Source of the DNA: Leptolyngbya sp. 'hensonii'
GTDB taxonomy: Bacteria > Cyanobacteriota > Cyanobacteriia > GCF-001939115
Direction of reading: 5' to 3'
NCBI RefSeq assembly: GCF_001939115.1
Contig: NZ_MQTZ01000044.1
Coordinates: 186,001 to 250,000 of the forward strand
DNA length: 64,000 nt
Shown here: piece by piece, positions 14,073 to 17,697 of the stretch
How the letters are laid out: each line of letters opens with the position of its first letter
Numbering within the stretch: the first letter of the stretch is position 1
The notes under the pieces: model-generated
The model's database searches: none
The model's input: the letters and a program-made list of their open reading frames with translations, nothing else
Told to the model about the DNA's origin: nothing
Translations under genes and position numbers: made by a program

Positions 14073-14282
14073 ATGGCTGAATATCAGAAGATTGAATACC
14101 GCATTGATAAAGAAGGCAAGATTACTGAAAAAGTGATCGGAGTGACTGGCCCCGATTGCACAACGGCAACAGCGGGCATTGAACAGGCATTGGGGCAGGT
14201 CGAAAGCCGGGAGCTTTTGCCAGAGTACGATCAGGACGGCGATGATGGAATGAGTTCTCTGGTTCAATCTGCTCAATCCTAA
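14073..14282 (+). CDS. DUF2997 small protein
   Basis: The 69-aa protein matches the DUF2997 pattern: an N-terminal beta-hairpin (IEYRIDKEGKITEKVIGV), then GPDCTTATAGIEQALGQV and a Glu-rich end. Relatives in cyanobacteria and phages are often encoded near DUF1257/Ycf35 and ferredoxin-like genes; function is unknown. GGGAGTAAAGG just before the ATG is a good ribosome binding site. Only 12 bp separate it from the GrpE-like gene, and that gene overlaps the Hsp70-like gene, so the three probably form one operon. Confidence 0.82.
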   Translation: MAEYQKIEYRIDKEGKITEKVIGVTGPDCTTATAGIEQALGQVESRELLPEYDQDGDDGMSSLVQSAQS

Positions 14283-14294
14283 GATGGACGCCCT

Positions 14295-14876
14295 ATGTTT
14301 CAAAGTTCTGCCCATGTCTTGCTCTGGTTTGAGACGTTGCTTCTGTTGGGTTGCCTGACTGCTTTGGGGCTGCTCCTCCGCCGGTCTTCCCGATCGCAAC
14401 CAGTGATCTCTCCTCCTCTACCGTCTCCTACGGCGGCTCCGAGTCCCCCGCCTCCCTCTCCAGTCCAGAGTGAAGTCGCTGCACTACGGCAAGAAGGACT
14501 TCGCCTGCGGCAGGAACTGGCACATCAGGAGGTAACCCTAACGGCGAATCTTCGTCGAGAAACGTTTCACCAGTTGCAGACCCTACTGACCAACTACCCC
14601 AGCGTGCGGCAAATGGTTCAGACCAAACCCGATCTGCCCGCTAAAAATATCCTCTCCTTGTTCAATGCCCTCGAAACCCTGGTGCAACATTGGGGATATG
14701 AGCCGATCGGAATGCCGTGGGAACAGGTCTCTTTTGATCCCCAGATTCATCAGCCGGATAGTTCGGGTCTGGCTCCGGGTGATCCCGTCTATATCCGGTT
14801 TGTGGGTTATCGGGATGGGGATCAGATCCTCTCACCAGCGAAGGTCAGCCGGACTCTACCGGGAGGTGGTGCGTGA
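14295..14876 (+). CDS. Membrane-anchored GrpE-like protein
   Basis: The 193-aa protein has an N-terminal membrane helix (about 8-28), a Pro/Ser-rich linker and a helical segment with coiled-coil character (about 58-95, EVAALRQEGLRLRQELAHQE). Its C-terminal domain reads like the beta-wing of GrpE: YEPIG, then FDPQIHQ, and finally GDQILSPAKV. GrpE proteins release ADP from Hsp70. Its stop codon overlaps the GTG start of the Hsp70-like gene by 4 bp, which strongly supports a partnership. The membrane anchor and short helical stalk set it apart from housekeeping GrpE. The GrpE assignment rests on the C-terminal motif and context, not on a database search. Confidence 0.68.
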   Translation: MFQSSAHVLLWFETLLLLGCLTALGLLLRRSSRSQPVISPPLPSPTAAPSPPPPSPVQSEVAALRQEGLRLRQELAHQEVTLTANLRRETFHQLQTLLTNYPSVRQMVQTKPDLPAKNILSLFNALETLVQHWGYEPIGMPWEQVSFDPQIHQPDSSGLAPGDPVYIRFVGYRDGDQILSPAKVSRTLPGGGA

Positions 14877-16432
14877 CGACGGTGGCGATCGACTTCGGCA
14901 CCAGCAACACGGTCGTTTGTTTTGCAGATCCCGTTACCCGCAGCCCCTGCACCCTGAACTTTGATCGCCTGTCTCGCCGCTTTGCGGCGGGCCGGGGCGT
15001 TGCTGAACTAGTGCCCAGTTTGGTGTTTGTTCAGACTGATGGGCAACTGGTGTTTGGCGAAGTAGTGAGATCGCAGCGATTGGGGTTGGCCCAACCAGAA
15101 CGGTTTTTTCAGTCTTTCAAGCGCGATCTGGCGGCAGATTATCGTCCCCCCGATCGCCAGATCGATGGCTATGCCTACACTCCAGAATTTGTCTCAGAGC
15201 ATTTTCTCTATCATCTCTGGCAACGAGTCTGTGAGCGGGTGCAACCCAGCCAGGTGGTGTTCACGGTGCCAGTGGGAGCTTTTGAGCGCTATCGAGACTG
15301 GTTCCTGGACTTTGCCAGCCGTTATAAACTGCCTCCAGTGCGATTGCTGGATGAGTCCACGGCTGCAGCCCTGGGTTATGCCGTCCAGCGACCCGGTACG
15401 GTTGTGCTGGTGATCGATTTTGGCGGTGGCACCCTGGACCTGAGTTTGGTGCGGACGATCGGCGGGGAACAGGATCAGCCGATCCTGCGGGCGGAAGTGT
15501 TGGCCAAGTCTGATGCCTATGTGGGAGGGGTGGATATTGATGTCTGGATTGTGGAACATTACCTGAACCAGATTGGCTCTTCCCGATCGGAGGTGCGGGA
15601 AATGGGCTGGCTCAATCTTCTGGAAATTGCGGAACGCCTGAAGATCCAACTTTCCCAGGCCCAGGAAGCCAAGGAAAGCTGGTTTGATGATGAGGTGTTC
15701 ATGGCCCATGATCTGACCTTAACGCGAGAGGAACTGGCCGAAATTCTGGAGACGCGGCAATTGCTGGAGCAGATGCGGCAGGCGTTGGATGAAGTGCTGA
15801 CGATCGCCCTGAATAAAGGCATCAGTAAAACAGATATTGAACAGGTGCTGCTGGTGGGGGGAAGTTGTCAGATTCCGGCGGTGCAGCAGTTGGTGCTGTC
15901 CTATTTTGGACGGCAGCGGGTCAAGCTAGATAAGCCTTTTGAAGCGGTGGCCCATGGCGCTTTGGAAGTCAGTCGGTTGACGGAGATTGAAGACTATTTG
16001 CGTCATAGCTATGCCATCCGGCTCTGGGAACCCTACAGTAAAACCTATTCTTACTACACCTTGTTTGAGCGGGGGATCCGGTATCCCTGTGAACGACTGG
16101 ACCCCCTGATTTTGCAAACCGCCCAGGATGGCCAGAAAGAAATTCGCCTGGATATTGGGGAGTTGGCGACCCTGGCCCAAGCGGAGGTGAACTATGACAG
16201 TCGAGGTCGGATGACCAGTGGCCAGCTCACGGTGCAGTCGGAGTTCCGCTCCCTGGAAAGTCATCATGAGCAGGTCTGTGTGGCTCACCTCGATCCGCCG
16301 GGGGATAAGGGCCTGGATCGAATCGAGGTGCGATTTGAGGTGAATGGCCAGCGGGTGTTACTGGCTACCGTCAGAGATCTGGTCACGGGGGAGATTCTGG
16401 TGAATGGTGAGGCGATCGCTAAACTACAGTAA
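14873..16432 (+). CDS. Non-canonical Hsp70 family ATPase
   Basis: This 519-aa protein has the actin/Hsp70 ATPase fold: phosphate-1 loop VAIDFGTSNTVVCF near the start, phosphate-2 VLVIDFGGGTLDLS around 176-190, DESTAAALGYAV before it, and the adenosine motif VLLVGGSCQIPAV near 325-337. The remaining ~150 residues are beta-rich but differ from the DnaK substrate-binding domain, and there is no obvious helical lid or EEVD tail. It starts at GTG inside the stop region of the GrpE-like gene (overlap GTGA), preceded by GGGAGGTGG, so translation is coupled. A specialised chaperone working with the membrane-anchored GrpE-like protein is a reasonable inference. Confidence 0.88.
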   Translation: MTTVAIDFGTSNTVVCFADPVTRSPCTLNFDRLSRRFAAGRGVAELVPSLVFVQTDGQLVFGEVVRSQRLGLAQPERFFQSFKRDLAADYRPPDRQIDGYAYTPEFVSEHFLYHLWQRVCERVQPSQVVFTVPVGAFERYRDWFLDFASRYKLPPVRLLDESTAAALGYAVQRPGTVVLVIDFGGGTLDLSLVRTIGGEQDQPILRAEVLAKSDAYVGGVDIDVWIVEHYLNQIGSSRSEVREMGWLNLLEIAERLKIQLSQAQEAKESWFDDEVFMAHDLTLTREELAEILETRQLLEQMRQALDEVLTIALNKGISKTDIEQVLLVGGSCQIPAVQQLVLSYFGRQRVKLDKPFEAVAHGALEVSRLTEIEDYLRHSYAIRLWEPYSKTYSYYTLFERGIRYPCERLDPLILQTAQDGQKEIRLDIGELATLAQAEVNYDSRGRMTSGQLTVQSEFRSLESHHEQVCVAHLDPPGDKGLDRIEVRFEVNGQRVLLATVRDLVTGEILVNGEAIAKLQ

Positions 16433-16509: not shown

Positions 16510-17697
16510 TTATGCTCGGACCGCTTCGGCAAAGCGAATCTTCAGGTAATCCTCCTCCATTTTGGCCCCAGAGGGCTGCAGGGCTGCCAGGGCCTGGGGC
16601 AAAACCAGATTGCGCCGATGATTGCCGATCCGAATATTCAGTTCATCGCCTGATTTGCTCAGCTCCACCTGATTTTTGGGCACTCCCGGCAGGTAGACCT
16701 CCAGGCTGTACTGGTTCTGTTCCTGCACCACCCGCAGGGTCGTTTCTTTGTAGTAGACCTGGGCAGGGTCTTCCTCTTTGTAGAGGGTATCTTTCAAACG
16801 ATCGAGAGCCGCCAGACCACACATCTCATCGGAGAACAGGGGCACTTCCTTAATGGGGAGGGGACTGAAGTTGTCCTGAATTTCCTGGCGATACTGTTGC
16901 TGATTCTCCTTCCAGCGCTGGAAGAATGGGTCCGTGACCTGATCGGGAATAATCCGGTTGGCGATCACCAGATCGGTACTGACGTTGTACAGGCTCAGAT
17001 AGGCATGGGCTCGCAGGGATTCTTTGATCACCATTTTTTCGGGATTGGTGACCAATCGCACAGAGGTCTGAGTGTTGTCCGTCAACACCTTTTCCAGGGC
17101 TTCAATCTGCTGATAAAACTCGTAAGGTGCATCCATCACTTCGTTATCTGGGAGGGAGAAGCCAGCCAGAGGCTTGAAGAAAGGTTCGAAGAGCGGGCGC
17201 AGGGCAGCGGACATCTTCTGCAGCGGTTTATAAAAGCGGCGCATATACCAGCCTGCTACTTCCGGCAAACTCAAGAGCCGTAGGGCAGTGCCCGTCGGGG
17301 CTGAGTCAATGATCAGCACCTCAAAATCACCCGCATCGTAGTGGCGTTTCATCCGCACTAGGCTGAAAATCTCATCCATGCCGGGTAGAATGGCCAGTTC
17401 CTCGGCTTCTACCCCTTCCAGCCCCCGGGCCTGTAGCACCTGAGTAATGTAGCGCTTCACGGCACCCCAGTTATTCTCTAGTTCCATCAGGGCATCCAGT
17501 TCAGCTCCCCAGAGCTGGGGGCGCACCGATCGGGGTTCATGCCCCAATTCCATATCAAAACTATCCGCGAGAGAGTGAGCCGGGTCCGTACTTAAGACCA
17601 GCGTGCGATAGCCCAACTCGGCACAACGTAGCCCTGTTGCAGCCGCAACAGAGGTCTTGCCGACTCCTCCCTTCCCTGTCATGAGAATCACGCGCAT
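16510..17697 (-). CDS. ArsA/Get3-family ATPase with C-terminal Hsp20-like domain
   Basis: The 395-aa protein has a deviant Walker [10 protein letters not shown], at residues 8-16, as in ArsA and Get3. The switch region [12 protein letters not shown] and the Walker B-like [14 protein letters not shown] are also present. Only one ATPase half is present, as in Get3. The last ~85 residues ([20 protein letters not shown] onward) look like the alpha-crystallin-type domain found at the end of cyanobacterial and plant ArsA homologues. The CxxC zinc pair of Get3 is not seen. Possible roles are tail-anchored protein handling or chaperoning. It is convergent with the Hsp70-like gene, 78 bp apart. Confidence 0.88.

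Follow-up and report, generated by a model that had tools for sequence, protein, structure and literature searches.

Conserved cyanobacterial locus encoding a DUF2997 protein, a GrpE-like protein with a predicted membrane anchor and a lidless Hsp70-like protein

Analysis of a 64,000-nucleotide stretch of Leptolyngbya sp. 'hensonii' (contig NZ_MQTZ01000044.1, positions 186,001 to 250,000), here called the window, indicated that three consecutive genes code for a DUF2997 protein (DUF2997-b), a GrpE-like protein (GrpE-b) and an Hsp70-like protein (Hsp70-b); their coordinates and those of the features within them are given in Table 1. DUF2997-b is followed by a 12-base gap and GrpE-b, which runs into Hsp70-b at a spacing of -4 (GTGA overlap). 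The three open reading frames, their coordinates, both spacings and the overlap are exactly as stated in an earlier annotation of this DNA, referred to below as the original prediction. A scan of the locus for promoters and terminators gave counts close to the shuffle mean and nothing deciding for a single transcript. Downstream lies a convergent open reading frame (window 16510-17697, minus strand) that by eye resembles an ArsA/Get3-type ATPase.

Table 1. Genes and features of the three-gene locus (coordinates in the window)
Feature	Coordinates	Strand	Size or basis
DUF2997-b	14073..14282	+	69 aa; invariant Cys29 in 9/9 aligned orthologues
GrpE-like protein (GrpE-b)	14295..14876	+	193 aa
GrpE-b N-terminal hydrophobic helix, residues 4-31, predicted membrane anchor	14304..14387	+	AF2 helix 4-31; Kyte-Doolittle 2.05 at residue 8
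GrpE-b Pro-rich stalk, residues 35-57	14397..14465	+	sequence; low pLDDT
GrpE-b helical part: long helix 56-99 and helices 104-110, 116-132	14460..14690	+	AF2 model
GrpE-b GrpE-type beta domain, residues 136-185	14700..14849	+	DPxxHQ ... G ... GY ... AKV signature
GTGA stop/start overlap, GrpE-b/Hsp70-b	14873..14876	+	sequence
Hsp70-b, lidless Hsp70-like protein	14873..16432	+	519 aa, GTG start
Hsp70-b nucleotide-binding domain, residues 1-364	14873..15964	+	catalytic residues conserved
Hsp70-b atypical interdomain linker, residues 374-387, replacing DnaK DVLLLD type	15992..16033	+	alignment
Hsp70-b divergent beta-SBD-like C-terminal domain, residues 388-519, without lid	16034..16429	+	collinear weak matches

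All three genes have a paralogue that is nearly universal in cyanobacteria, namely DUF2997-a, the gene for an HTH-GrpE protein and Hsp70-a, respectively, a relationship that is new here. Outside the operon, the closest relative of GrpE-b in its own genome is the HTH-GrpE protein C53 (216 aa; HTH_26 5.4e-10, GrpE 6.6e-4), with 36% identity over the GrpE part, and Hsp70-b is closest to C49 (Hsp70-a; 532 aa, 37%), another Hsp70 without a lid. This genome retains the a forms alongside the window operon. C53 and C49 are sisters of GrpE-b and Hsp70-b with a similar GrpE part and no lid, but C53 carries an HTH instead of the membrane anchor, and the a genes are scattered in this genome, not gathered in one operon; neighbourhood would therefore not connect them. 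Among the 291 genomes of the class, matches to HTH-GrpE were found in 235 at E <= 1e-8, some of them GrpE-b cross-hits, matches to Hsp70-a in 283 at E <= 1e-50, some again cross-hits, and matches to DUF2997 in 282. Phylogenetic trees showed that Hsp70-a (30 sequences) and Hsp70-b (36) are each monophyletic and join in one clade of 66 sequences (support 0.995), to which none of this genome's four full-length DnaKs belongs; the window Hsp70 is thus not a DnaK of the canonical type. GrpE-b (45) and HTH-GrpE (30) are likewise each monophyletic and form sister clades. Canonical GrpE was considered as the source of the second-tier matches of the GrpE-b search and was rejected, since the copy in this genome is the HTH-GrpE protein; a search with HTH-GrpE recovers the same second-tier sites in other genomes.

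A Pfam search with the window GrpE-b protein gave no GrpE match at E <= 1, short of the curated cut-off of PF01025, and PF01025 was matched at E <= 1 by 8 of 9 aligned GrpE-b members (best E 5.1e-5). The AF2 model of GrpE-b, of modest confidence (pLDDT 73.8), was compared with solved structures. Foldseek returned GrpE chains at all of ranks 1-12 (E 1.7e-3 to 1.8e-2, none <1e-3) with low TM-scores of 0.23-0.34 by query, which a different placement of the long helix may explain, and in VIA-align the seven best solved structures were all GrpE (Z 5.8-7.0; the next 2.7). The model of the window protein shows the long helix, helical bundle and beta wing of the GrpE fold, and alignment placed the beta domain among the best conserved parts of GrpE-b. 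The original prediction had called the 193-aa protein GrpE-like, an identity to be given up if no structural match to GrpE appeared; both structural comparisons ranked GrpE on top. The N-terminal hydrophobic segment and the Pro-rich stalk that it had described are both present. The hydrophobic segment reaches a Kyte-Doolittle (KD) value >= 1.6 in 39 of 45 GrpE-b orthologues, the remaining 6 lying at 1.44-1.48, and the same test was passed by 1 of 30 HTH-GrpE proteins. Charges flanking the membrane helix in the GrpE-b set favoured neither topology (22 vs 18, with 5 equal). The window GrpE-b seems to be fixed to a membrane.

Analysis of Hsp70-b gave a PF00012 score of 119.8 bits and a weaker Pfam match to MreB (32.6 bits). 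The equivalents of DnaK K70, E171, D194, T199 and G341-G342 are identical in all 36 b and all 30 a sequences aligned, by which the ATPase site of Hsp70-b is intact. The alpha-helical lid is absent from all 66 of these full-length relatives, which end at a conserved C-terminus past the beta region. Hsp70-b residues from about 388 to 428 and from 476 to 507 gave a collinear but weak alignment to the DnaK beta-SBD; a single hhalign comparison gave P 8.2e-4 at a probability of 24%, and profile alignment to DnaK 4rtf covered residues 3-429 plus a weak stretch at 476-506. Comparison of the C-terminal profile with the PDB yielded nothing significant, the 11 sub-threshold matches being headed by seven to eIF3h and including three to Hsp70 SBDs (E 1.0-1.4), and a Pfam scan of 30 C-terminal domains of the Hsp70 set found no relevant family. 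An AF2 model of Hsp70-b built with 10 sequences was too poor for a fold search (mean pLDDT 46.9). The claim that this Hsp70 is without a standard substrate domain and lid is accordingly borne out for the lid and only in part for the substrate domain, since Hsp70-b, on weak alignment, probably keeps a divergent substrate beta-domain.

The positions that we take to be the allosteric relay of DnaK (R151, P143) and its J-domain contacts (R167, D393) were also compared. The P143 equivalent is present in 66 of 66 Hsp70-a/b sequences. The R151 equivalent is present in 30/30 a sequences and in 1/36 b sequences, that of the window, and the other 35 have Leu; the R167 equivalent occurs in 30/30 a and 4/36 b sequences, the window among them, and that of D393 is lost in all 66 (0/36 b). 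At these presumed contact positions Hsp70-b departs from canonical DnaK, and no J-protein is encoded within the three-gene unit. On residue comparison, Hsp70-b would be loosely coupled and perhaps J-independent.

Conservation of the trio was assessed among the same 291 genomes with cut-offs of E <= 1.6e-121 for Hsp70-b, <= 3.6e-34 for GrpE-b and <= 5e-11 for DUF2997-b, placed after inspection at gaps in the E-value lists; coordinates and genome lists for the counts were transcribed by hand, and genes were taken as linked when on the same strand with starts of neighbours within 4 kb. Hsp70-b was found in 78 genomes, GrpE-b in 56 and DUF2997-b in 77, all three in 49 and none in 205. Co-occurrence is far above expectation, with Fisher values of 5e-31 to 2e-54 that overstate the significance because the genomes are related, and are not true probabilities. 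The order DUF2997-GrpE-Hsp70, whose conservation had been proposed as a check, is kept in linked form in 34 of the 49 genomes with all three genes; the other 15 have GrpE-Hsp70 only (8), DUF2997-GrpE only (4) or neither (3). The GrpE-Hsp70 link is found in 44 of 51 genomes having both and the DUF2997-GrpE link in 39 of 51, and a 4-base GrpE/Hsp70 overlap is possible at 18 of 50 loci; together with the GrpE fold, the first link and the recurrent overlap give good support to the original view of a dedicated GrpE-like/Hsp70-like pair. Comparison of the window with nine other loci showed that flanking genes are shared by close relatives only and not generally, that one group of downstream open reading frames connects 5 of the 10 sources, and that no conserved client or additional operon gene occurs among them. 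Hsp70-b was also present in 12 of 117 sampled genomes of the phylum, all 12 from the class of the window, the class being not listed for 85 negatives.

DUF2997-b and Hsp70-b occur unlinked and without detectable GrpE-b in 23 genomes, 22 of them from genus g23, so GrpE-b is not always needed; in the g23 lineage it is dispensable, or replaced, or diverged beyond detection. In three of these genomes that were read (L185-L190), Hsp70-b and DUF2997-b stand as lone genes at separate sites. Near the DUF2997-b genes that stand unlinked in g23 and f5 (L188-L192) is an open reading frame that by eye looks PHP-domain-like. Longer membrane-anchored GrpE-b copies of 240-286 aa (L193-L200), with no adjoining Hsp70-b or DUF2997-b seen, are a second GrpE-b in five genomes and the sole one in three.

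DUF2997-b itself belongs to PF11211 (72.6 bits against a curated cut-off of 24.1). A passage of PMC4284462 places DUF2997 with ycf35 and fed7. The ferredoxin or Ycf35 context invoked in the original prediction is therefore a published association, but it would concern the other DUF2997 paralogue and not DUF2997-b; the hint of a client or cofactor that had been drawn from it led to none in this analysis. The mostly open-access literature searched on DUF2997 apparently contains nothing on Hsp70. By its conserved co-occurrence and gene order, DUF2997-b may be an adaptor.

Analysis of the gene directly before Hsp70-b revealed an exchange at the N-terminus of GrpE-b. In the 8 genomes of family f5 (L177-L184; locus L182 ends just past the Hsp70 start) this gene codes for an HTH-GrpE-b protein with no membrane segment. 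HTH-GrpE-b also precedes Hsp70-b in L201-L203, with DUF2997-b as the first gene, while in L023, L086 and L088 a membrane segment and an HTH are found together. The HTH is of the Cro/C1 type. Pfam HTH_26 scored above the cut-off in L181, L183 and L023, narrowly under it in L177 and L182 and clearly under it in L018, whose GrpE-b is the same protein as that of L088; a profile built from the HTH of the a proteins gave 31-58 bits in all 14, the best decoy among 1,320 shuffles reaching 13.6. The 66 distinct GrpE-b proteins, partly from the same genomes or close relatives and so not independent events, comprise 52 with the membrane segment only (6 of them at KD 1.44-1.48), 11 with the HTH only and 3 with both. 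This tally includes two proteins relabelled by eye to HTH only, L181, where the hydrophobic stretch precedes the likely start, and L182, where it lies inside the HTH. Membrane localisation, as originally proposed, is therefore supported for the lineage of the window but is not a constant of the family.

The Hsp70-b tree showed that L201-L203 split first (support 1.0 for the rest), followed by seven f5 proteins (0.798), and that the membrane group appears as a clade at a support of 0.135. L201-L203 also came first in the GrpE tree (48 for the rest), in which internal nodes are weak and L181 and L182 were scattered. Since the L201-L203 and f5 lineages branch first, though partly at weak nodes, the HTH is likely, though not proven, to be the ancestral state and the membrane anchor derived. 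The a forms were undetected in f5: GrpE and Hsp70 queries each gave one match in 8 of 8 genomes, and DUF2997 gave one match in 7 genomes and none in G042, a joint absence that amounts to one lineage. The same chaperone switch may have been moved from DNA to a membrane.

We favour, at a probability of roughly 0.55, the reading that the three genes constitute a dedicated, tethered Hsp70/GrpE-domain module in which the N-terminus of the GrpE protein sets the place of action. The lidless Hsp70-b would hydrolyse ATP and hold clients loosely via its divergent beta-SBD. Its operon partner would bind the Hsp70-b nucleotide-binding domain through the GrpE domain, presumably on the cytoplasmic side of the membrane, and speed ADP release, and the N-terminal module of the partner would decide location, as a membrane helix in the window and a Cro/C1-type HTH in older branches; DUF2997-b would be the third conserved member. 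A broader and more tentative proposal is that in most cyanobacteria HTH-GrpE, together with Hsp70-a and DUF2997-a, serves as a regulator that adjusts gene expression to the folding state of proteins; the window operon would be a duplicate in which a membrane anchor has replaced the DNA-binding domain. The locus offers a way to test how a single exchange-factor domain may be shifted between DNA and membrane by a change of N-terminus with the Hsp70 kept, and partners can be proposed for three orphan near-universal genes, DUF2997-a, HTH-GrpE and Hsp70-a.

It is rather unlikely that the GrpE-like domain is instead a docking adaptor and not an exchange factor, with Hsp70-b regulating its carrier as a co-repressor in the HTH form or a stress sensor in the membrane form. 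We know of no GrpE domain in HspR. The HspR/DnaK system of Streptomyces is alike, as far as the title of a paper cited in PMC2687793 tells, in that a DNA-binding protein is worked by Hsp70, DnaK being named there as co-repressor with HspR; such an arrangement would suit the HTH-GrpE fusions that adjoin Hsp70-b, but the conserved GrpE beta domain suits exchange equally and the HTH form has no known DNA target. RodZ positions MreB, and by analogy Hsp70-b could be an actin-fold scaffold, not a chaperone, that is positioned by the HTH/membrane protein. The absent lid, the altered linker and allosteric residues, the weaker MreB Pfam matches and the combination of membrane helix and HTH in L023, L086 and L088 would be in keeping with a scaffold; this is nevertheless improbable, the PF00012 score being far above that for MreB, the DnaK alignment running on into the beta-SBD and the partner having a GrpE domain. 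That the genes are merely co-transcribed, with products acting separately and the GrpE-like protein serving canonical DnaK, would accommodate the persistence of Hsp70-b and DUF2997-b without GrpE-b in g23 and the partial linkages (DUF2997-GrpE apart from Hsp70 in 4/49, GrpE-Hsp70 apart from DUF2997 in 8/49), but is made quite doubtful by the strong linkage and co-occurrence, by the differing flanks and by the fact that in f5 all the a forms go undetected together.

The window unit resembles canonical GrpE/DnaK (E. coli; cyanobacterial copy G000:C50) in the adjacency of the genes in the cyanobacterial genome, the fold classes and the ATPase residues, and differs from it in a GrpE-b with a membrane anchor, a shorter helical part and no Pfam GrpE match, and in an Hsp70-b with an atypical linker, no lid and no J-protein in the unit. 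Passages of PMC9239167, reviewed in PMC12288463, describe DnaK1/DnaJ3/GrpE acting at cyanobacterial type IV pili, and those of PMC12288463 note that grpE and dnaK1 are often near pilBTC. That system is alike as a specialised cyanobacterial Hsp70 system at a membrane machine; as described there it uses a GrpE and a DnaJ, in which the window unit differs. A single GrpE homologue is counted for N. punctiforme in PMC9239167, a figure from which divergent GrpE-domain proteins appear to have been left out. Hsp70 and GrpE also accompany GTPase genes in a different system, according to a passage of PMC7159879. The mostly open-access literature searched on GrpE, HTH, lidless Hsp70, ycf35 and slr0086, PMC3564720 among it, gave no description of this operon or of HTH-GrpE. 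A second GrpE/Hsp70 pair with overlapping ends was observed at L110:1186-2091 and L007:1396-3138 (G000:C5); its GrpE-domain protein matches PF01025 at 46.1 bits and has two hydrophobic N-terminal stretches, and its Hsp70 is of 581 aa.
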